A DNA stretch of 64,000 nucleotides from Amylostereum areolatum (lineage: Eukaryota > Basidiomycota > Agaricomycetes > Russulales > Stereaceae): contig SAXG01000024.1 in assembly GCA_012932865.1 (NCBI GenBank), positions 372,001 to 436,000 of the forward strand. Reading direction: 5' to 3'. Below the pieces are notes generated by a model that searched no databases, was not told where the DNA came from, and saw nothing but the letters and a program-made list of their open reading frames with translations. The position numbers and the translations under genes were made by a program. How positions within the stretch are numbered: position 1 is the first letter of the stretch; each line of letters opens with the position of its first letter. Shown here in pieces: positions 1 through 14,830 of this stretch.

Positions 1-1563
1 AAATGACGACCTTGCCACCGTTGATGAGATCCTTGAAAAGTTCATTCATCATTGCCTGGAATGTTGCAGGAGAATTCATAAGGCCAAAGAACATCACCAG
101 AGGTTCGTACCGCCCGCGGTTCATTTTGAAAGCGGCCTTCCACTCGTCTCCTTCCTTGATACGGACGTTGTTGTATTCCCAGCGGACGTCCATCTTGGAG
201 AAGACCTTGGCACCCTTGAGTTTGTCGACAAGCTCGGAGATGAGTGGGAGCGGGTATTCGTTCTTGACAGTGCCTTTATTCAACGCTTGATAGTCCTATA
301 CAGGACGAAGCTTCCCATCCTTTTTCTTGACAAAGAAGAAGGGACTCGCCATGGATGATTTCGACGGGCGAATGTACCCCTTCTTGACGTGTTCATCGAG
401 GAAGCTGTCCAGCTCTTGCTGCTCGGATGGGGTCAAAGGATAGACCTTGCAAGCCTTTGGTTGGAAGTCTGGTTTCAGGTCAATAGCATGGTCCCAGGGA
501 CGTCGCTCAGGTAGACGTTCAGACGTAGCTTTGTCGAACACCGACTTGAACGAGCGATATTGCTCAGGGACCATATCTTCAAATGTTTTCGTCTTGACAT
601 CAGCCGCCTGTTCTGCAAGCTGTTGCGCCTTGGTGAAGGTGGCACGTATGGCAAGGTCGTTGGACTGTTCTTCTTGTGCTAGTTGTTCAAGGGTGACTTC
701 CTTTACGACTCCCGCAGCACGTAGGCCGTCTTGGGTCCATGACGCCAGGACAACGTCCGACTGCTCGTCGTCATCTTCTGTGAACCACCTTGTGCCTGAA
801 GGTGTACGGCGGGGAGAACGAACACGAGCATGCTGTACACGGTGGGCAGGGATCACGTACTTCATGTTGCTTGGGTGGTTGGCCACCGTGTGGACACGGG
901 GTTCTTCGACTTCAACCTCGTCAGCTTCAACAACGTCAATGGGTGGTTGCGGCCCAGACCGATGTTCAGGTTTGATGCGAAGCTTCTTGACCGGAGGTTT
1001 GTGTAGGATGCAAGTGGGTGGGCAGCGTGTCATGTCGACTTCTTCTCCATCCCAGTTGATTTCTGGGTTATGCTCCTTCAACCAGTCAGTTCCTAGGATC
1101 ATGTCGTGATCACCGATGTCCGTGACAAAGAATTCGGCTGTTTCTTCATGATATGATTCTCAGGATTGCGCGTAGATGCAAACACGCTGGGTAGTCGAAT
1201 GACGTACCCATCCCATTATGTTCTCCATCCCATCTACATTGCGGACAGGGAACGGGCGGTCGAGGGTATCTAACGAGAGCCCTTTCTTCTCTGCAAATCT
1301 TCGGTTAATTATAATGCCTTCAGCACCGCTATCCAGCAGCACTTCAGCATCGGTTTTTCTTCCAGTGACTCGTCCAATCAGTTCGACATCCAGCAATATT
1401 GAGGGCGTGTGCCTATTCTTCGTGACCGTTGACAATTTCAAGCAGGTTGGAAGGACATGCTCACTGGATTGCATGGATGATAGTACAGAGAAACGATTTG
1501 ATGATGCCATAGAAAAACCTTTGCCACCCACAGACGACGCGACTGGGAGGCGTTCTAAAAATC
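1..1563 (-). pseudogene. Ty3/gypsy pol: aspartic protease and start of reverse transcriptase, with two nonsense codons
   Basis: The frame reads an aspartic protease (active-site triplet DSG in LLDSGAEG, near 1350) and then ILGTDWL near 1100, the second conserved protease segment. A linker follows, then the N-terminal part of reverse transcriptase (KDGKLRPV near 310, then DYQALN). A TGA at 1160-1162 and a TAG at 296-298 interrupt the same frame. At the second one the preceding RPV and following DYQALN show that a CAG (Gln) codon became TAG. The coding sense continues to the left edge: 1-295 on the minus strand encodes more of the reverse transcriptase palm. The frame overlaps the end of gag and enters at -1, so it is normally made as a Gag-Pol fusion. 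This copy is best called a decayed pol. Confidence 0.88.
1555..1563 (-). other. Putative gag-pol -1 frameshift site
   Basis: Gag ends GAT-TTT-TAG, with five T residues running into the stop codon. The pol frame is open across this point and lies at -1. Slippage on the T run next to the stop would fuse Gag to Pol. It is not a textbook X-XXY-YYZ heptamer, so this is an inference from frame relationship and homopolymer only. Confidence 0.4.
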
Positions 1564-3312
1564 CAAACCGCCAGCGAGATCCTTCAACATCGCCGCGGCC
1601 TCCTCACGCTCCTCCTTGCCCAACTTCTTCATCTTGTTGATCAGGACCGACATCTCCTTGACTGGATCCGCATTTGAGGTTGTTGCCGCTTGAGGGGACG
1701 AGGGAGCATGCGCGGAGGGTACTCCTGAGTTTGAGTCAGTTTCTAATGCTCCTACACGTCTTCCACTGCTCGAGTCCTTGTTCGGGCAGTCACACAGCAT
1801 GTGACCTGGTTGGCGACAGAGGAAACAACCACCTTCCTTGCGCAGGCGCTCACGCTCAGCATCAGTGAGACATCCCGGACGCCCTCCTTGGGTGCTGACT
1901 GCTCCAACGCGTGGTCCACTGCTGGTGGAGGATGAGGGTCGTGCATTAGTGGTCGATGACGAGGTCTTCTGCTTCTGGTCTGCAGGCGATGCGAGCCGGA
2001 GGTTGCGGAGAAAGGCTTTATTGAGCGCACATGCACGAACCTTCCAGTCGTCAATAGTGGTAGGGAGCGGCCAAGTCCTCTCCCATTCCTTGCGAAGGCC
2101 ACTGTTCAATCCTTCTTTGAAGAAGTAGAGAACGGACTCGCCTTGGAATCCTGAGCGTGGGAGGAGGGACTCGAATTTGGTGATGTACTGCTGCACGGGG
2201 CGGTCACCCTGCCTGAGGTCTGCAAGGGCATTCTGAGAGGTGATGGTCTCATCAAACTGCTTGAAGTCCTTGTCGAACTGGGCGAGGACCTCCGTGAGGG
2301 TGAGCCACTTTGCACAAGTGGTTGTACCCGCTGGCTTGTTATCCTCGGCATCAAGGATCTCCTCCTGGCGCAGCTCTGCCCATACGCCGGCGACTGAACC
2401 TTCCATTAGGGAAAGCATCAGCGGTATCTGGTCATCGTTGCTTGCGTACTTCTTGCTATTTGCCCTAAGGAACATGCGGACGGCATTTTTGAAGCGACGT
2501 GACTCTTTGCGATCGCCAGTGAATGGCTTAGGCTTAACACCTATCTCGCCGGTGGAGGGGGTGGGGGTGGTCGAGGCTGGTTGAGACATGGTGGTTGCGG
2601 GCGGTTGAAATGGGGGAAGAGGGTTAATAGGGGCTGCAGGGGACTGATGGGGACTTTGAACGGCTGGAGAGCCTGGGGTAGAGGGGGGTAGGGGAACTGC
2701 GAGTGTGTTGCGGAAGGATGCGACACGTTCGTTGTGTGCAAGAGTGATCCTGTAGAATGCTTCTGCAGCGACCTCGAGTTCTTCGTCTAAGAGGAATGGT
2801 TTTTCACCTGTGGCCCAGGTCCAACGATCAACATCTGTGTCGTAGAAGCTGGGATACCACTCTACGACTGCGCGTCCGTTCTTCTTGTAGGTGTACCACT
2901 TCTTTGTATGCTCGTCGAATCTGATACCGAGGGGAACAGACCAAGGCTGGTCTCGTCGCGGTGGAGGTGGAGGGGAGCCTTCTTCTTGAGAAGCAGTGGC
3001 GACTTCTTCTCGTTTGGGGGTCTGGGGGTTATAGATACGGTCGTGCTCCTGCGCCGCAACATCGATATCAGTCTGTTCGACGTAAGGGAAACCTTCCTCG
3101 TCGTTGAAGTACCACTGGGCAGTGACTCCGTCATCGTGTGTCCAATGTACGGTTCGTCGTCCACCGAGGGTGAGGGCGTAGTACTCGCCTGGGTTAGCTC
3201 CACGAGTGAAGCCGAGAGGGAAGTCTGGAGTGGTGGCACGGGGGGAGGATTCGGAAGCGATGGTGGTGTCTAGAAAAAGTCCGCCGCGATGGGGCGATGG
3301 CCTAAGAGGCAA
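1555..3312 (-). CDS. Ty3/gypsy Gag polyprotein
   Basis: An open frame of about 585 codons ends at 1555. The N-terminal third holds two related aromatic-rich segments (around QWYFNDEEGFPYV and DRWTWATGEKPFLLDEE). A Pro/Ser/Thr linker follows, then a retrotransposon-gag capsid-like region beginning near GDRKESRRFKNAVRMFLR. After a Ser/Gly-rich linker comes one CX2CX4HX4C zinc knuckle (CFLCRQPGHMLCDC), which binds RNA in capsids. No ATG opens this frame: it is open upstream to a TGA near 3424. The true start may therefore lie in another frame upstream, joined by a frameshift in this decayed copy. The listed 5' limit is the first non-ATG start in the frame. Neighbouring pol is in the -1 frame. 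Confidence 0.85.
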   Translation of the reverse strand: MPLRPSPHRGGLFLDTTIASESSPRATTPDFPLGFTRGANPGEYYALTLGGRRTVHWTHDDGVTAQWYFNDEEGFPYVEQTDIDVAAQEHDRIYNPQTPKREEVATASQEEGSPPPPPRRDQPWSVPLGIRFDEHTKKWYTYKKNGRAVVEWYPSFYDTDVDRWTWATGEKPFLLDEELEVAAEAFYRITLAHNERVASFRNTLAVPLPPSTPGSPAVQSPHQSPAAPINPLPPFQPPATTMSQPASTTPTPSTGEIGVKPKPFTGDRKESRRFKNAVRMFLRANSKKYASNDDQIPLMLSLMEGSVAGVWAELRQEEILDAEDNKPAGTTTCAKWLTLTEVLAQFDKDFKQFDETITSQNALADLRQGDRPVQQYITKFESLLPRSGFQGESVLYFFKEGLNSGLRKEWERTWPLPTTIDDWKVRACALNKAFLRNLRLASPADQKQKTSSSTTNARPSSSTSSGPRVGAVSTQGGRPGCLTDAERERLRKEGGCFLCRQPGHMLCDCPNKDSSSGRRVGALETDSNSGVPSAHAPSSPQAATTSNADPVKEMSVLINKMKKLGKEEREEAAAMLKDLAGGLDF

Positions 3313-3878
3313 GCGGTGAGGTAGGAGGCCTTGAGAGCCTGGCGGATCTTGTGCTGATGATGACGCTGTTGCAGCTCCTTGCGGCTGGTGATCGTTCGAC
3401 GAAGAGGTGGTGGAGGAGTAGATTCAGGCGTAGGGAGGGCAAAGTTATAGACGGTGGGGAAGCTTTGACGGATGAGTGATGGTGGCAGATGTGTGTTGGA
3501 ACAGGTGTGCCAGGTGGGGGAATGGATGGAAAACTCGAAGCGGTTCTGATCTATATCGAAGCGCACAACAATGCGAGTGTAGAGGCAGAGGATCGTCTGC
3601 CTACCGTGACCATGGTTCCAGCGCCACTCGTAAATGCGGCAGTTGACACCGTGGACTTTCCAGGTGTGCTCTTTGCAGAGGAGCTCAAGGGCGCGTAGGC
3701 GATCGACAGCGACAGCATCTTCTCGAGGCCAAGGGAAGGGAGCATCGCGGTTGGAGTTGAAGGTTTGGAGGTTGAATGTGATGAAGATCGGTTGATCGAG
3801 TGGTTCCAGAATGGGGGATTTAACGTCGTAAAGACGGCAAGGGATGTGGTGAAGTGGGTGTGGGGGAGATCGTCCTAG

Positions 3879-4250
3879 TGTTAGGGATCAGTCCAGCGAC
3901 TGGCAGATCACCCAAGTCACCCAAAGAGAGAGAGAAAAGAGGATGGATTGACAGGAGAGGGTCCAAGTCCAGGCGTAGGGCCGAAGCAGTACGTGGGGAA
4001 TGAAGAGGATGATCTAAGGAAAAGGGGCGCAGAGGAGAGCCTTATATATGTACAGGATCGATGATGCAAGAATGGTGCGAGCGGGAGAGAACAATAAGGA
4101 AAAGGAAGGGGAAGGACGTGGTCCAGAGCGATGATGTCATAGATGGAAAGATAAGAGGAGTCAGGCCGACGATGTCATGTGATGGGAAATGTAATCATGT
4201 GACTGAATGCGATGCAACGAAAAGGGAAAGGATTGAGGCGATCTGTGACA
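3879..4250 (-). repeat. LTR of the Ty3/gypsy element (5' LTR)
   Basis: In element orientation the segment starts TGTCACAGATC and ends GATCCCTAACA, so it has the TG...CA ends of an LTR. It sits immediately upstream of the gag leader. It is 372 bases long and contains a TATA-like TATATAAG in the correct orientation. No second copy is in the window, so the boundaries rest on the terminal dinucleotides and position. A primer binding site just downstream is not obvious. Confidence 0.6.
4042..4049 (-). promoter_or_regulatory. TATA-like element in the LTR
   Basis: On the minus strand TATATAAG occurs in the middle of the LTR, about 160 bases before its 3' end. That is where an LTR U3 promoter would start the retrotransposon transcript. 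Confidence 0.4.
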
Positions 4251-4296
4251 CAAAGTCTCTGTGACCGCTATCAATATCAGCTTTGACCTGGACTCC

Positions 4297-5280
4297 ATGG
4301 ACGGTTTCAAGACCCGCAAGAGGGTATGTGAATTTACACTTACACATGGTGCTATTCACTGAGATCTTCGACAGGCTTTGAGCCCTGAGATGGACCCGTG
4401 CGGCAGCTCTGCTGAGAGGCAGACAGGTACTCGGGTATGTGCATAAGCTTCACATTGTGCGTGTCCATGTATTGACTATTTTTATAGGTTCCATCTGTTG
4501 AAGACTACAGTGGGGAGACGCGTGCTGTTGCGAAGGCCATCGGAGATATTAACAACGCATGGCCATGCAGCCTGCACACTGGTCATTGCTACCTCGACAG
4601 CGAGGGCATTCACATCCCGCTCACGCGCTTCCGCAAGAAGCAATGGGGAAGTTTCTTGGTATATTTTTTGATTCTACTGCTTCTTTGTCACTAGCTAACA
4701 ACTATTGTAGGCGCCATCACCGACCCACTCCGCCTTGGAGCCTCCTCCCGACACACTTTTGGCTGAATGGTCCAACATGGCCACCGCACCCACATCCTCT
4801 GCCAAGCCTCGAGGTCGCACCGGTCCAAAGCCTAGCCCTGAATCAGTCCCCGACAAATCCAGTGCTGTCGATCCAAGCATGCTCATGATGGGTATGATTG
4901 CACCTCTCGCCACGATGGCTATGCAACATATGGTGTCCTGGGATCAGAAGACTACCGGATCTCGTGCCAGCACGTCTCGCGAGGTTCTGTCTCCCCCCCC
5001 TGCGTGCGAGGCCATTTCTTCTCCTCCACTTGCCATCGAGGATGAGTTGACGCGTTGCCTCGAGGCCTTTCGACGCGCCAAGGGTATTTCCCCCGATGTC
5101 ATTGCAGCTGCTATCACTGGCTTAGATGATACTGGCTATACTCCCGATTCGATTCCTGATCCATCTGTCGAGCGTATACAAGAGCTAACCAAGCTGCCAG
5201 AGGGCCATGCACATGCGTTGAAGAAGTTTGCTGCTGCATGGAGTGGCAAGGTCGAGGCGAAGCGTGCCCGTCGTGCTTGA
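4297..5280 (+). CDS. Hypothetical protein beside transposons, 275 aa, four exons
   Basis: Exons 4297-4323, 4375-4434, 4488-4658 and 4711-5280 join in frame at phase 0 with GT-AG introns of about 50 bases. The N-terminal half has a W-P-C-x3-H-x2-H-C-Y pattern, which could be a small metal-binding fold. The middle is Pro/Ser-rich with a Met-rich patch (MLMMGMIAPLATMAM). The C-terminal 80 residues are predicted helical, resemble a SAM-like domain, and end in a basic KRARRA tail. I do not recognise a named family; the layout recalls lineage-specific basidiomycete proteins found near transposons. The start codon lies 46 bases from the retroelement LTR, and the gene converges on the Tc1-like transposase. 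It may be transposon cargo or a host gene. Confidence 0.6.
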
Positions 5281-5506
5281 AGTATGTTCACTGACCACAT
5301 TTTTCTGTGTTACACTTGCTCTGCTAAACTGTTTTCTCATCTGCGTCTATCTTGCTATGCTTTCCTGCTGCTCCGGTGGCCTATAATTCACGTACGTGTT
5401 CATGTCTGTATATTTTTACTCGCTATCAGTTGCTATCCCCGCTCTCGTTGCACCTGCAGTCCTAGTCCTACTCTGTTACCTTAACAGTCCTACAAGCTAC
5501 TATCTA

Positions 5507-6595
5507 CTAAATATATCCACAGTCCTTCATCCATCCTGCCACATCTTCAGCTGTGACCGCCATGATGGCTTGGTGAACAAGCCAAGGTATGGAAGTGGGA
5601 CCAGAGAACTCGGTTTCGTGACGACGGAGCCAGGCCTTGATCGCAGAGAAGGCCTCTTCGATAGGATTGAAGTCGGGGGGATAGGGAGGGAGGTAGATGA
5701 GGCAGGCTTCTGTTCCACAACAACTAGTGTGAGTAACAAACCCAAAAGCACGCCGAGTCTGAATCTAAACACATACCACATTCATCCTCGATCAGAGCAC
5801 GCACTTCCTCCGCCGCATGGTGTATCGAGCAGTTATCCATCACAACTACGCTGTGTTCTCCTGGATAGCGGCCTAGCCGAGGGGCCTGGAAAGAGTCTGA
5901 ATGAGTTGGAAATCTCTAGATAGGAAAGGATGACGCACCACCTGTTCGCGCAAGAAGTGCAGGAACCTCTCCGTTGTGACAGACCCCTCAATGATATCGA
6001 GAGCCATGATTCCGTTGCACGAGAGCGCAGGGAGGATGGAGTGAGATACACCTCGGAGAAATGTTGACCGTTGCGCGCAGGGAATGTTTGCTGGGGAGCA
6101 GCCATGCGACCGCTGCATAGTGCGGTTGTTGACAGCACTCTCGTCAATGAAGACGAAGAGGTTGGGGTCATTGTACTCAGCCATGTCTATCTCCCACAAC
6201 ACTCGTAACTCCTCATCCCATTCCGCTGCTGCTTTGCTGAGCCGTTTGCGAGGCAGATCCATCTGTCGTAGTGTGCGAGCAAGAGTTGCCAGTGAAACAT
6301 CCACTCTGCGAGCTGTGCGGAGCCGGTCTTGCAACTCATCGAGGAATGCTGTTGGCCTCATCTTGATATAGGCTGAGATCCAAAATTGGTCAGCATTGTT
6401 GAGTGTCGGAGGACGTCCTGTTCGACGGCTGAATGGATTGCGGACTTGACCATACTGTCGATGGAGTCGGAGGACCTTGGAAACCAAACCGATGGAGCAG
6501 CATGCTCGCTTGGCAATTTCGGATTCCGTGAGTTTCTTGTCATAGTACCAGGTGACAAGCAAATTCTTGACATCGTCAGAGATAGCGTGGGGCAT
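5507..6595 (-). CDS. Tc1/mariner (IS630-type) DDE transposase, intact, two introns
   Basis: Exons 6595-5939, 5885-5777 and 5709-5507 give 322 residues. I chose ATG at 6595; the upstream open frame lacks an ATG. The N-terminus is a helix-turn-helix region (ESEIAKRACCSIGLVSKVLR) and a second DNA-binding segment with a GRPPTLN linker. The DDE catalytic core follows: first Asp in VFIDESAVNNRTMQRSHG, second Asp in VVVMDNCSIHHAAEE, and the acidic third site in LPPYPPDFNPIEEAFSAIK. All catalytic positions are present and the frame is intact, so the protein could be active. In RC orientation the sequence starting TACAGCCGTTTGCATAAG (ending at about 6736 on the plus strand, next to TA) looks like a Tc1-type terminal repeat. 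I found no matching left repeat. Confidence 0.88.
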
Positions 6596-6753
6596 GTTGA
6601 GAGCGCGGTTGTGCAGCGACAATGATGCTCGACGAAGTTCACTCCAAGTCACATCAGTCACATATCAGGTCTTTGTCATCAGGCACCTCGACGCAGAAAA
6701 AATCATGCGTTTCACGGACTTATGCAAACGGCTGTAATGGATGTTATCAGGGC

Positions 6754-6847
6754 CAAGGGGTATGCGGGACGGAAATCCTGGCACCAGCTCCCCCCGACCC
6801 TCGGAAGTTGCCGAGGCTGCTGAGCGCACTCGTTGCTTTGTCATCAC
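6754..6847 (+). repeat. Left terminal inverted repeat of hAT-like element
   Basis: 94 bases, inverted copy at 7699-7792 with two T/C differences. It is preceded by the target duplication ATCAGGGC. Confidence 0.88.
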
Positions 6848-7698
6848 TTCAATGCACAGTCCAGGTGAATCCAACGCGCTCGCCTCCATGGTCTATGGAG
6901 CTCTATATTCTCATCCTCGGGAGCGGCGGTCGTAAACACGCCATCGTCTGGAAGCTCCAGCTGTTGGATGTGTCAGCCATTTTACCTTCGTATGTCCCGG
7001 AAACGGCGGTGGGACTGACTCTGGCCTCGAAGATCAAAAACCATAACTTTCTTTCCGTGACTGCTATGTAGTCTCGAATGATGATCGACTGCCATGTAAG
7101 TAGCTCGTAAATTTACATGATATGTGAATACCTACTTTGTGTTTGGTTTTCTGAGATGGCTTGCCAAGGTGCTCAACTCTCAGTAAGTGATCCCGGGGCT
7201 GCCATCCCTCTCATCTCCCCATCCGCTCTCCCTGCCAAAATGCAGAGGTAATATTTTACCATACACAGTATGATTTTGTGCATGATCCTGCCTTTGCCGT
7301 TCACAAGCTAAAGCTCTAGTACCACGAGTGTTATCCAATCACGGACTACCGGCTTTCGACTTCTCGATGAGAGACTCTGACCAGGGAACCTGGGCATTTT
7401 GAACTGGAATCCCTATTAGTGTTTTAATCGCCTTTAATTCATGCTTTAATACAGCGCTGCTAGTCTACAACCCGCGGGTGTTTGCTAGGCTCGCAGTCAC
7501 TTGGCTCGAGCACTTGCCCTTCAAGTTCCCCGACCAATGATAGCCATGATCAGCTGTGCGGGGGTCGCCGCATACCAGGAAGTTTAACCCCAAATTTACA
7601 TCTACTCAGAGATCATCGATCAGATGCTACACTTTGTAAGTTAGACATAAGATGAGTCCGTGTGGCGCGCTGAGCAGTGACTCTGAGCGCGGCTGAGT

Positions 7699-7792
7699 GT
7701 GATGACAAAGCGACGAGTGCGCTCAGCAGCCTCGGCAACTTCCGAGGGTCGGGGGGAGCTGGTGCCGGGATTTCCGTCCCGCATACCCCTTG
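7699..7792 (-). repeat. Right terminal inverted repeat of hAT-like element
   Basis: Inverted copy of 6754-6847. It is followed directly by the second ATCAGGGC at 7793-7800. Confidence 0.88.
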
Positions 7793-7836
7793 ATCAGGGC
7801 TTAAATGGACTTCTGCCCCCAGTGCGTTGAGTGCCA

Positions 7837-7867
7837 GGACCCCTGAAACGCCCGCCAGAGGTCCGAT
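7837..7867 (+). repeat. Left 31-base terminal inverted repeat
   Basis: Perfect inverted match to 14652-14682. Outer flank is the target duplication TTGAGTGCCA at 7827-7836. Confidence 0.9.
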
Positions 7868-8089
7868 CCGCTAGGGGGGCTTTCCCCCGGGTTCCGCAGC
7901 AGCTCGAAAGGGTCGTTCGACCCCGGGTCGCGTCCTCGGACCTCCACCAAAGGTTGGTCTAACCCCGGACCTGTCCTCAGACCTCATAGATAGCGAACCG
8001 TGTATGTATTGTAGGTTCATAATGCGACTGGGTACTCTAAAATGTTATGGATGTAACTAGGGTAAAGTATGGGGGGAAGTGTACCATAT

Positions 8090-11000
8090 TTACGAGTCGC
8101 CACCGGCAGGTGCTCGAGAACGGCTGTGCATTGCTCCTATTGCCCGCTGAATGTCGGCCTCTTTGCTCCATATTTGCGAAAGGATTTGAACATCCTGGCT
8201 TGAAATAATATACTCGCGACTACTCTGTTCAATAGAAGAAACAGATACCAAGAAGGCCGATGGTGGAAGTAGTGCGAAGCGCGGGACTTTGAGCAGACGT
8301 GATTCGGTTGGCTTTGGGATGACACGGAACATACGAGGGACATGGCCATGGCCAGCCTTCCCGGGTTCGAAAAGCTGGACAGCGATATGAGAGAGAGCCA
8401 TGATCTGCGTGCATTCGGGCACCCAACCATGAGCGCCGTAGTTTCCGCCTGATTTGACATAAAGTTCAAGCACTGTAACACGGGCTATTTAGCTCTTCGA
8501 AGTATCGGTGCGGAGGACGTTGTACTCACCTCGCGCTAGCTGTATGCGGCCCTCGTGGAACACAAATGCGAAGTCGTGGCCGGCAGCGGCTTTGACGGGG
8601 TGTTCCTTGGACACGAGGGCAGTCTCAAGGAGAGCCGGAAGCTTGAACTTGCGAATCGCCTTCGTTCGTTTGGTTTGTTCCTAGAATCGTAGGTCGAATC
8701 GACGCTCACGACAAGATACAAAATTTGCACTTACCGAGCCAGCTCGATTGTCCGCAGCCAGTGCAGCATTCGCCGAATTCCCCGTCTTCTTCCCCCCAGT
8801 GTTTGTCCAACGTGCCAAACGATCCTGGCCTGATCCATCAGCCTTCTCTCCAGGTTTATGGAGAATATTTCGATATGTTTTGACGAGTTGCGCCCGAATC
8901 ACTGCCTCCGCAGGTCGTGTTTGCTCGGTGGATGACTGACGAGTCCCTGTTTCGGCCTGGCGCGTCTGGTGTTTCTCGCGAAGTTCTGTGAGAGTGTCCA
9001 TATCCAAGTCCGAGCAGTCTGACAGTGCAAGCGTAGTGCGCTCTCGTGGATCCCTCGTATCCGGAAGTGCATTCGCAAGATAATTACCGAGTTGTTGAGC
9101 ATCCTCTTCCCACATCCGATCTGCGTCGGCACTTGTCTCGTCAAGCATCTCGCTGCTGAGAATTTGAGTTAGGAACTTTCAATTCACCACCTAAACAGAC
9201 GGTGATAGAGAATACATACATCATGATGCCTCGTTCGATGGAAAGCGAGGCGGCGGCCATTGCAAGTGCATTCAATTCGTTATCTTCAGAGACAGTGGTG
9301 GTCTCGTCTTCCCAGAATTCCATTGTACGACGCAACTCGCAAGCACTTGTGTCGTCTTCGTCCTCCGACTTGTCTTCATGTTCATCTTCCCCTAGTACGT
9401 TGTCATCGTCATCATCGCTATGGTCCGCACTAGAAGACGATGCATTTTTAGCCAGCATAGAATATACTGAAGGTAACCGCATCCGGGAAACCTCCCAGTC
9501 ACGATTGACGTCGACACCGAGAAGTTCCCACAAGCCAGCAGCTTCTCCATATGCGGCATGGGCAATTGTCTTGATCTCTTCATCGGACGGGAAAGCGGAC
9601 AGTGCAGCGAGGTCCATGTTTTGGTCATCTTGGTACGTGTGGTTGTAACCTTGCGCGCGAGCCTTGCCATCGGAGACGTTGTTGAAGAGGAATTTCTCCC
9701 GAAGTCGAATTTGCAGTTTAGGTGCCATGTATTGGAAGTCGAGCGCATTGAAGTCCTCGACAATCTGACGAGACACGCCGAAGACATGCTCACAGCCTGG
9801 AGTACCAATCTTCCATGGCAGGAGCGGGTACTTCCCGCCAAGTTCGTCGCGGAAGATTATAACAGATTGGATGAGTGCGTCGGCAAGAAATTGGGTGATG
9901 TCGAGGGCCTCTGGGGATAGACAGTGCTTGGATTTGGGGTAGCCTCCACGCGCGAGGAAATCCTCCCACATCTCTGTAAAATAGAGGGTACGTAGGGCAA
10001 TGTGGATGCGATCCGATAGACATATGAAACGATTGCTGTAAGCGTCGGGAAGCTCGCCATAAACATAGCAGAAGACAATTGTGCCACGTTGCTCGTGATG
10101 ATGCTTGACTAACCAGCGCAAGGTGTTGGCACTGAAAACTCGGATTGCGGCGTTGTCATCCTGGCGATCTAGCTTCTCAATGTCGCGATGATAAATGGGA
10201 CCGGGTTGGCCATCTTGAACTTCAAATGCGAGAGCGCGTATGTGGCTGTAGGCTGCGATGTAATGCCCCAATGTCAAGACACGAGCACCCGAAAACAGAT
10301 TATTCCTGTATGTTTTTCGACCATGATCTGGATCTTGAGCAAAGATGACGGGGATTTCCCGGTCAGATCCGTTGACCTTGAAGAACCCGACTCGGTAGTG
10401 GCGGTTACGCGCAGGGTCAACGGGATGGGGAATGACATAGTCTCGATACCTGGCCGCTTTTCCATGCAAGATACGCTCGATTGATCGCTCCTTCGACGAG
10501 CCATCTGCTGAGTATACGACAACCTCGATGTCAAGCTTATGGAGCCCAACCAAAACAGTCTCGAGGTGCTTCCAGAGGTCCTCGGCCTTGGCTTTGGCAG
10601 ATATCGGCATCGCACATACGAGTATGGTAGGAACATTTGGGGCAAAAGTTTGCAGTGTCCAAACACGGAGCTGAGCACCAGAGCATGGATCAGATATTGG
10701 TTATTGGTGATGGTACAGGACAGCACACCTGGGTAGCCTTTTCGATTTTCCCTTGGTTGATTGCATGTGCGAGCTCGTCAGGTTCAGGGAGTATCATGGG
10801 TGGGCAATCGGTTCCACCGAGCAAAACATACTGCCCAAGGTCGGCATCCCAGTACGGGTCTAGCGATGGCTCAAGTTTGGTATCATCGCATGCCAACGCA
10901 ACGGGGCCGTTGTACTTGAGCTTGTCGAGAATCTGTCGAACACGGTCGAATGTACGCTCCTGTATTCCAATAGGAAAACGTGGCTCGCGTGACCTTTGAA

Positions 11001-14000
11001 TTCTGGGTAACAAGTTAGCACAACTCGGAAAGAAGCTTGCCAGTACTGTAATTCTACTTACTGCAGCGTGCGCGCGTGCGGAAGTGGCAGGACCTGTCGC
11101 ATTGCCTGATATGCTTTCGGGCTGTGGATATTGAGAACATGTGCGAATTCTGTCACGGTGGGAGCATAACGCATTGCACGCGAATCCACACCACGACGAG
11201 CCATCTCGTCTCGGTCGACTAGGGCTTTCAAGAAACCTTTGAATACATCCTCGTTCTTGAATCTTCCCTCTGATACTCCTCGTGCAAAAACTAGGTATGG
11301 CTCGCGTGAATTCTGCAAAGTGTGATGTAAGAAATCGCATCCACTCAACATAACACAATCACGTACCTCCTTGAATGCGTTAAGGATTGACTGGAGGCCG
11401 ATGACTCGAGCGTACCGGTCGGTGCTCATCTCCGCCCCACGAACCACTACTTTTGCCGTATACTTCGCATTTTCTGGGTCCTTGTCTTTCTGGTGGCGAC
11501 GGAGTGCGTTCGAAAAGGTTTTGAGAGATCGGAGCGATTTGCAAGCTACACATGGTGGGCGAGAGGCAATGTCCGTGTCCTCAGGAACTTGAACAGATAG
11601 TGAACACTCGGTGGAAACTACACGTTGGAGGTCTAAATCAACACGCCACTTCCAGCGGGACCGTTGAGCAGCATAGACGACCTCTTTCTGATCTTGGGAT
11701 AAATTCCGAAAGTTTTTTGCGGAGGGGAAGAGTTCGTTCGTCAACAGTGAAAGGGAGGGTGCTCCACCGCCATCAGTGTATCCTCGATCTAGGTAGTTTT
11801 TGATCTTGTCATCCGTTCTCGCAAGGAGTCCTGGGCATGGTAATTCGACAATGCGACGGGAAGTGGGCATCGTTGTTGATGCACGCCACGAGTCAAGTGA
11901 CGACATTCCGCCGGTGCCACTTCTACATGGCTTTTGTTTTCCGTCTTTACGACCAAGGACATGCCTTCGGAATGCGTTGACTTCATGAAGAGCATCCATG
12001 CGGATGACACAGCCGCAAGTAGAGTGCCGAACAAGGAAAGGATCCCGAGGGTCGAATTCAGCGTGAGAGTCGTACTCGCGGACCTTCCTCTGGAACTCGT
12101 CCTTCTTTGCACAATCTTCAGTGTACGTCCCGTCCGCCACTCCCTGTTTGATAAACCGCTGACGCTGGGCAGTCCTTGAGTTGCCTACGTTCGCAACACT
12201 CCCGGTTGAGTCGACCTTTACATGCGTTGGCAATGATTTCCCCTTCGAGGAAGCGCGGGCAAAAAGCTTGCTGATCTTTGTCGGCTTTGGTGTGTGGTCG
12301 CTCTCCTCACTTGACCCCTCGATGTCACTGAAGGTACGCTTTTTGAACCAGCCAATGACTTTGTTGGCTTTTGCCACCTTCCCCTCCGCCGCTGCCTTCT
12401 TTGTGCTCGCAAATATATCAAAGGTCTTGAGCTTTATCCGGCCTTCATTGTGTCCTGCCGGTGCGGACGACGAGGACTGGGTAGACCCACGAGATACTGC
12501 ACGAGAAGAGGGATGGAAAGCGGGAGGATTTGAGTTGAGTTTGGGTAGTATGTCCGAGTTATTATGTGGCACAACAGGGGGAGGGATTGGGGGACCAGTG
12601 TCGGCGGTGTCATTTGACATTGTACTGGAAAATGATGTCGAAAGGTTTGTCTCTGCATCTTGGGTGGGAAGCTGAAGTTGCGCACTCATGCAAACTGTAG
12701 TAGGGTCATCAATATCCATCGGATCGTTGTAGGATCCGTTGTCGTTGTCGTCAGCAATCATAACGTCTATTGCTTGCTCGGTCGGAAGGTAAGCGTCTCT
12801 GGAATCCATGGCCATCGGCGAAGGAGGGCTAATTGCTATCGGAGCAGAAGGAACATGGCGTTCATCCACAGCTAACAGCCTTGCCATGCCTGACGGAAGG
12901 CGGCTGGCTCGTAATGATCCTGCAGTGTGCGCTGGCGGTGGTATGCTTGCCACTCGGCCCTTAACAGTATCGTGGGTAGGTGAGTTCGTGTTCGTGATGA
13001 TAAAGAATAACAACTTACCACTCTGCTCCTTGTATGTGCTTCTGCTAACCGGACAAACCAGCGGACTCGGTGTTCAACAGCTGTTGTCTGTGTCCAGAGA
13101 GCCTCGTTCAATGTCGTGTGGGCAATTGTATTTGCCGCACATATTCCACATGACACCCAGTCGTCTTGAGTCGCACAGGGAAATGTATCGTCGCTGTCAA
13201 CCCATCTGTATTCGCCGCCGAGCCGGACGCGCAACCAGTGTTGTACTTTCGTGACCACTTCTTGAGGCCGCTCAAGTTTATGCCGAAGACTGTCGCCTGT
13301 ACCCCTCTGGTAAATGTCCCAAAATCATGTATCATAGATTGGGTTTCCTCACCATAAGCCACTGTGCGCTGATGACCATCTATCCGTAGAATAGCGAAGT
13401 GTTGTTGGTCCTGGACAAAAACCGGCATGAGGACAACCTTCTTGCCCTCGGAAAGGATTCTTTCGGTTTGACGGAGAAATCGGGGCGACCTGGCTTGATA
13501 GAAATCCGCGCGCTCTGCTTTTCGAATCTCGTTCCAGATGTCGAACCCGTGGACCTCGTAAACACGGCTTTCCGGTGGTGCATTTTCAAGCTGCTCCACA
13601 ATCCAATGCATCATCATGTTGAGGGTGAATGTGCTGACCCGCCCGTCTCCTAGGAGCTTGACAAAGTCTGCTGTGGTTGCATTCATTTGTGCGCCTCGAA
13701 TTGCCGTCGGTTCGTGCCATGGTATAGTTGCTACTTGTCGGAGTGCCTCTTGAACGTGTTCTCTTGATTCCTCTCCCTCCTCTCCTGCCTTGCTCTCTAA
13801 CCAAGTTATGGCATTCTTCCAGGCATTCTGTATATCCAGAATTGTGTGCATCTGTTGCCAGTACGTCACCACCCAGAATGGTAGTCGACCATCCCGATAT
13901 TGGGGGTCGCAAACTGACTGCATCCCATCCAGGACCATTTGCCCAATCAACCGGTCTACCTTCCTTACAAAATCTCGAGGAGGGAGGTCACGGACATGGA

Positions 14001-14295
14001 GGTGAGCAGATGCGCGGTCCGGCGGTTCCTTTGAAAATGCTGATGATGGTGCCGGGTATACGGATGTGTTGCTTCTCTTTGGAAGGGACGTAGACACAAA
14101 GTCCCAAACAGGAAGGTTTGGACCAGGGAGAAGGTCGTTCTCCAACTGAGGGGGGATGACGAGGAGAGTCTTGATGTGATGGGCGAGTTCCGGAGGAATG
14201 TCGATTTGGGGGAATTGTTTTCCGGTGCCAATCCAGGTCTTGTGGTCAAAATCAGGTATTTCAGAATCATCGAGGACTGAGATAGGTGTATTCAT
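8090..14295 (-). CDS. Large transposon protein: Ulp1-like protease plus DDE transposase, 1,914 aa, nine exons
   Basis: Exons 14295-13353, 13296-13019, 12959-11367, 11312-11062, 11002-10729, 10670-9220, 9155-8735, 8680-8530 and 8472-8090 join in one frame. Residues 1-400 contain a C48 (Ulp1/SENP-type) cysteine protease with catalytic order His (QQHFAILRID, about 299), Asp (AYGDS, 316), Gln (358) and Cys (DDWVSCGIC, 364). Residues 410-800 are low-complexity, then two Cys/His clusters (STCGCVIRMDALHEV; PPCVACKS...LRRH) that may bind DNA. A DDE-like core follows: Asp in ALACDDTKL (about 1061), Asp in FAQDPDHGRKTYRNN (about 1226) and Glu in TPGCEHVFG (about 1407), a spacing reminiscent of P-element/THAP9 transposases. 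The only doubtful join is exon 2 to 3: if that intron is not used, protease and transposase are two adjacent genes. Exon 7 has a NAGNAG acceptor. Confidence 0.75.
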
Positions 14296-14651
14296 GTGGT
14301 CAGGGTTGGGAAGTGTGAGTGTGAGTAAGGGACAGAAGGTTGAACATCAACGGCGGAGTAAGTGCCCAAGCTCCTGTCATTGTGCGCCTGTATAGGACGA
14401 ATATAGGTGGAATAACTGCTACTTGGAGATAAAACTATTTATCTATCATATTTGGTCCAAATTACAGTACAATACCCTGTCTGTCCATCTCATAGTCCCC
14501 TCGGATAGCCCCGGGTCAAGGATCGGACCTCGCCAGCAAACGGTCCCTAACCCGGACAGATCCTCGGACATAGAGCCAAATTTGGGGTCTCAGACCCGGC
14601 ATCCCCCCTCGGAGCTCGGCGCTGACGCGCCGTTTGACCCCGGGTAGGTGC

Positions 14652-14682
14652 ATCGGACCTCTGGCGGGCGTTTCAGGGGTCC
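14652..14682 (-). repeat. Right 31-base terminal inverted repeat
   Basis: Perfect inverted match to 7837-7867, followed by the second copy of the 10-base target duplication at 14683-14692. Confidence 0.9.
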
Positions 14683-14830
14683 TTGAGTGCCAGACTTCAT
14701 CGGTCCGTGTCTCCGCTTTCCTATTCATCCTCCCCCGCACGCACCACCTCACAAACGTCTGGAATCGAGACTATAAGTATGTGAGTGGTGTCTTGATCCG
14801 GGAATTTCGAAGCTCACGGGGACAGAGGTT

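Follow-up and report, generated by a model that had tools for sequence, protein, structure and literature searches.

What kind of transposon lies within the 64,000-nucleotide stretch of Amylostereum areolatum DNA analyzed here (assembly GCA_012932865.1, contig SAXG01000024.1, positions 372,001 to 436,000 of the forward strand; hereafter the window), and why does its single predicted gene place a protease ahead of a transposase? Our analysis indicates that the element, which occupies positions 7836 to 14683 of the window (6,848 bp), is very probably an autonomous, recently mobile cut-and-paste transposon of the P superfamily in a wood-decay agaricomycete, encoding a single predicted protein with, in this order, a conserved NT domain, a C48/Ulp1-like protease, and a P-type transposase, the fused protease perhaps acting in cis as a deSUMOylating enzyme. 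Sequence comparison and structure prediction point to this reading through the ends of the element, its 8-bp duplications, its near-identical copies, the domain order, and the catalytic residues of both activities conserved in relatives.

The element is bounded by terminal inverted repeats of 32 bp (7836 to 7867 on the plus strand and 14652 to 14683 on the minus strand). A search of the 57-Mb assembly (182 contigs) with this 32-mer, allowing up to three mismatches, returned 11 matches, 10 of them perfect and forming five pairs, and the reversed control pattern returned 0 matches in the same genome at the same threshold; the repeat pairs exceed chance. Besides the window copy, four near-identical copies are present, on C172 (L009, 945489-952336), C150 (L010), C100 (L011, at 59040), and C8 (L012); the repeats are perfect in all five, and their alignment contains six variable columns. 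Comparison of the copies places the boundaries at a first base A and a last base T and, given these boundaries, a perfect 8-bp target duplication flanks four of the five copies: TGAGTGCC in the window (7828 to 7835 and 14684 to 14691), GCTGTGAA at L010, CAGGCAGC at L011, and GGAACACC at L012. An initial annotation, made from the window alone, had rightly described the inverted repeats as perfect, although it measured them at 31 bases, and had read the flanks as a 10-base duplication, TTGAGTGCCA. This sequence does stand on both flanks of the window site; the other copies show it to be the 8-bp duplication plus a chance T and A. When the exon borders of the window copy are applied, the frame of 1,914 residues is open (stop at codon 1915) in four of the five copies, and the three other open copies differ from that of the window by one or two residues. 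The element is probably a complete DNA transposon that was recently active.

The motif CGGACC/GGTCCG occurs three times in the first 250 bp of the window element, twice in the last 250 bp, and three times in the intervening 6,348 bp; in a sister family of the same genome (L033, described below) the corresponding counts are 3, 3, and 1. These motifs may represent candidate transposase binding sites near the element ends. Separately, L039 (C102, about 5222-5669) has a single unpaired end that differs from the 32-mer at two positions, and stretches resembling both end regions of the element lie there within about 0.5 kb. This locus is perhaps an internally deleted, non-autonomous derivative.

The gene runs on the minus strand from a start ATG at 14295 to 8090, in nine exons separated by eight GT..AG introns of 54-64 nt, and closes to 1,914 residues, which reproduces the model first proposed. 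Exon 1 (13353 to 14295) encodes the NT domain and the first part of the C48 domain, the remainder of which, including D316, Q358, and C364, lies in exon 2 (13019 to 13296). Exon 3 (11367 to 12959) encodes a poorly conserved linker followed by a Cys/His-containing stretch, and exon 4 (11062 to 11312) the helix-turn-helix (HTH) of the Pfam family Tnp_P_element (about 11061-11240). The RNase H-like core starts in exon 5 (10729 to 11002) with D1061/D1062 (about 10882-10887) and continues in exon 6 (9220 to 10670), which carries D1169 (10503-10505), D1226xxH1229 (from 10334), and E1407 (9789-9791), together with an insertion within the core that is predicted to be mostly helical. Exons 7 (8735 to 9155) and 8 (8530 to 8680) encode the C-terminal region, and exon 9 (8090 to 8472) a C-terminal domain, beta-rich in the structural model of the homolog P0007, and the stop codon.

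The P transposase signature, as given in excerpts of PMC8230255, consists of an Asp on beta-1, an Asp on beta-4, a [C/D](2)H motif after beta-5, and a Glu on alpha-4. The predicted protein contains D1061/D1062 in ACDDTKL, D1169 in YSADG after beta-4, and E1407 in CEHVFG. Thus ACDDTKL and CEHVFG keep the places assigned to them in an earlier D/D/E proposal, but AQDPDHG, then taken for the second Asp, is the conserved D(2)H motif (D1226xxH1229) after beta-5. The P-type HTH family PF12017 matches the window with 38.7 bits (cut-off 23), and 11 of the 24 relatives scanned, which were chosen partly for their listed Pfam domains, match it at E<=1. The modelled fold is nearest to P transposase by a wide margin, and the P/THAP9-like core suggested at the outset is supported. 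No THAP domain and no KDZ or MULE family occurred among the Pfam matches in the window pieces (E<=10) or in the 24 relatives (E<=1). Since the 8-bp duplication, the 32-bp repeats, and the P fold coincide, the element falls inside the P superfamily. For the Drosophila P transposase, the excerpted text of PMC7776569 gives GTP contacts at D528, K385, K400, V401, S409, F443, D444, and N447.

The predicted protease shows the C48 order His, Asp, Gln, Cys in the window, as first noted, and in its relatives; a C48 fold is predicted for the homolog P0099, and PF02902 was detected at E<=1 in 16 of the 24 relatives scanned. Relatives were obtained by scoring the 7,996 candidates that share most words, which gave 110 with the core at E<=0.001; these, like the same-genome families below, are read as gene predictions or open frames. 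In 84 of the 110, one predicted protein contains the C48 part followed by the core (P0019 is counted here with a C48-part match of 31 residues), and in 78 of these the NT domain is present too. Judged by source names, all 110 are agaricomycetes; as the search reaches only relatives sharing short words, this need not mean a restriction to that class. Within the same genome, L033, L034, and L035 have the NT-C48-HTH-core order on one strand. The first of these is a sister family, 60% identical to the window element over exon 6 and 47% over exon 1, with perfect inverted arms (33 nt inside the element) and a perfect 8-bp duplication, GGTGAAGC. The arrangement of protease and transposase in one predicted gene therefore appears, at the level of sequence, to be family-wide in mushroom-forming fungi, and the original view of a complete DNA transposon joining a Ulp1-like protease to a DDE transposase is supported. 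Just beyond the right end of the sister element lies a long inverted structure (L033:8238-9479) with 484-nt arms that are 99% identical.

Is the protease module confined to P-type elements? The exon-1 protein gave further weak matches in the genome, three of which are L036, L037, and L038, and a fourth locus, L041, came from a genome scan with PF02902. All four have an NT-C48 module followed on the same strand by stretches resembling the DDE transposase of L038. This transposase matches DDE_1 (PF03184), which we take to be the mark of pogo-type transposases, with 44.2 bits in L038 and 28.2 bits in L041 (cut-off 22), and the conserved stretch before the DDE part at the four loci is a putative HTH, with no Pfam match in L041. 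A profile of P-type NT-C48 modules (75 relatives plus the window) gave 146 bits against the L038 module, the alignment spanning positions 33-387 of 403, and matched that of L041 with an E of 1e-55 (for 100,000 sequences); the four catalytic residues (His, Asp, Gln, Cys) do not vary in an alignment of 11 P- and pogo-type rows, two of which are near-copies. L041 (3545-8442, on C129) looks like a complete pogo-type element, as it has 26-bp repeats starting TACTGTA (3545-3570 and 8417-8442) with the module, a linker, the HTH-like stretch, and DDE frames between them. The 22-bp repeats of L036 also start TACTGTA; its transposase is scattered over several frames and its module is split between frames. 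In L037 the DDE match is limited to positions 2-154 of 357; the frame of L038 starts within a neighbouring repeat.

The protein P0111, annotated from Amylostereum chailletii (Agaricomycetes, Russulales), shares 99% identity with a reading of the present genome (401 residues searched). As its independent gene model has the same two splice junctions immediately downstream of the module, although it stops before the transposase, fusion of the pogo-type module and transposase in one protein is likely. One branch in a tree of 82 modules (support 83/64; present in 92% of 200 bootstrap trees) sets the four pogo rows apart; the branches meeting there are long, and the tree does not give the direction of exchange. 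We tentatively propose, with more doubt than confidence, that the NT-C48 module, of about 390 residues, serves transposons as a portable accessory that has moved between P-superfamily and pogo-type (DDE_1) elements in mushroom-forming fungi, each time joined ahead of the transposase, and that it would aid both by stripping SUMO-like marks used by the host for silencing or transpososome control. Open NT-C48 frames of 433 codons, which share 42% identity with the L038 module, were also observed at C163:119732, C178:49559, and C66:403484.

The Drosophila P enzyme, according to excerpts of PMC7776569, pairs the transposon ends with GTP, cleaves them, and inserts them 8 bp apart. Because the fungal element has the same 8-bp spacing and a similar repeat length and fold, a cut-and-paste route is the best inference: the transposase would pair and cleave the 32-bp ends and insert the element with an 8-bp stagger, like the Drosophila enzyme. 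With less certainty, the fused protease may strip SUMO or a related modifier from proteins beside the transpososome, either the transposase itself or silencing or repair factors, and would do so in cis, on the chromatin of the element itself. Such removal in cis is favoured on two grounds: the catalytic residues, unlike the linker, are kept family-wide, and the module is also found with an unrelated transposase.

The protease could instead process its own polyprotein and free the transposase, like viral and Ty-type polyproteins. A single long predicted protein whose protease and transposase are separated by a poorly conserved linker (the commonest residue per position reaches 10-13% of rows there, and 34-42% in the C48 part) would suit this explanation, but no conserved cleavage site was seen, and Gly-Gly occurs 42 times in 85 linkers, with no excess over shuffled sequences (45.6 +/- 6.4). 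Ulp1-type enzymes usually cleave after a folded ubiquitin-like domain; no Pfam family of such domains was among the matches of the window pieces or of the 24 scanned relatives, and we consider self-processing unlikely. Stretches resembling SUMO-interacting motifs (a simple in-house pattern) were likewise not above shuffles in the 85 linkers, and the linker patterns appear to lend support neither to self-cleavage nor to action on SUMO-marked factors, both of which the initial annotation had suggested. Even less probable, in our judgment, is a pair of genes, namely a stand-alone C48 protein whose frame would run past exon 2 and end at 12872, and a transposase that would begin within exon 3, with the fusion a prediction artefact recurring across genomes. 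The frame does stay open through intron 2 to 12872, there are ATGs inside exon 3, and no C48 domain is seen in 26 of the 110 relatives; against this, the order is kept in the other 84 and in three further families of the same genome, and the junction leaves little space for a separate terminator and promoter.

Mutator (MULE) elements have target duplications of 9-11 bp, and the window site taken alone reads as a 10-bp duplication, which had suggested a Mutator-like length, an unusual combination with a P/THAP9-like core, and perhaps an undescribed superfamily branch. A genome search for copies with the same ends, the comparison then recommended, did find five copies, with an 8-bp duplication in four and none at L009. 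MULE membership was rejected on this length, and KDZ membership on the lack of a KDZ family among the Pfam matches. As the Mutator-like duplication is not supported, the unusual combination and the new branch fall with it; the modelled fold is of P type by a wide margin, and the exactly 8-bp duplications at other insertion sites already refute a 9-11-bp element or a new superfamily, to which we give a negligible probability.

Several observations weigh against our preferred reading of the element as an autonomous P-superfamily transposon with a fused deSUMOylase-like protease. L009, alone among the five copies, lacks a target duplication (6 of 8 positions are unlike), as might result if copies had recombined or a flank had been deleted, and L012 is frame-shifted by a length difference in exon 6, its first stop being at codon 1237. 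The gene model is a prediction from splice signals and relatives; the C48 match is absent from the 26 relatives mentioned, several of them short or named partial, and the HTH region of L035 is split by a gap or interruption of about 1.3 kb. The activity of the window copy is not assured, since it departs from near-invariant core positions, such as P1404, where 85 of 89 rows have E. Neither its spliced NT-C48 part nor the exon pieces of that part matched Pfam at E<=10, and its locus is not among the 13 places found by the PF02902 genome scan; its predicted C48 identity is established via aligned relatives. Six of 79 rows have N or S at D316 and one row has W at C364, and NEDD8 and SUMO proteases lie within about 2 Z units of each other as fold matches, which makes substrate choice ambiguous.

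The element has the testable defining features of the P superfamily but an unusual architecture, and we found no description of a protease-fused P element in the open PMC literature (Repbase and one fungal-transposon paper lie outside this scope). It suggests that long P elements fused to a protease are numerous in mushroom-forming fungi and offers a natural system that ties a deSUMOylase-like domain to a transposase, in which SUMO-type control of transposition is testable via one cysteine. That the module also stands before a pogo-type transposase within this genome suggests an accessory role of enough use to occur with unrelated transposons.

Compared with the 2.9-kb Drosophila P element, the window element is more than twice as long and, unlike Drosophila P and THAP9, it has an N-terminal NT and C48 part, no Pfam THAP domain, and, in the fungal model, a beta-rich C-terminal domain. 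Its protease differs from Ulp1/SENP enzymes of the C48 family in being transposon-borne and joined to a transposase, in having an NT domain in front that lies outside the coverage of the matched solved proteases, and in a sequence too divergent, in the window, for a Pfam match. KDZ and some Mutator-like elements are said to carry Ulp1 genes, and the association of a DNA transposon with a Ulp1-type protease is thus shared with them, but their transposase differs, the window element having no KDZ or MULE Pfam family. Zisupton, in the excerpts of PMC12730594, has an 8-bp duplication as well. In the same paper, TET/JBP dioxygenase genes are common to fungal transposon lineages, and the ten that its abstract names include neither P nor pogo; there, as here, an accessory enzyme accompanies unrelated fungal DNA transposons, a dioxygenase in that case and a protease module in P and pogo types in this one.
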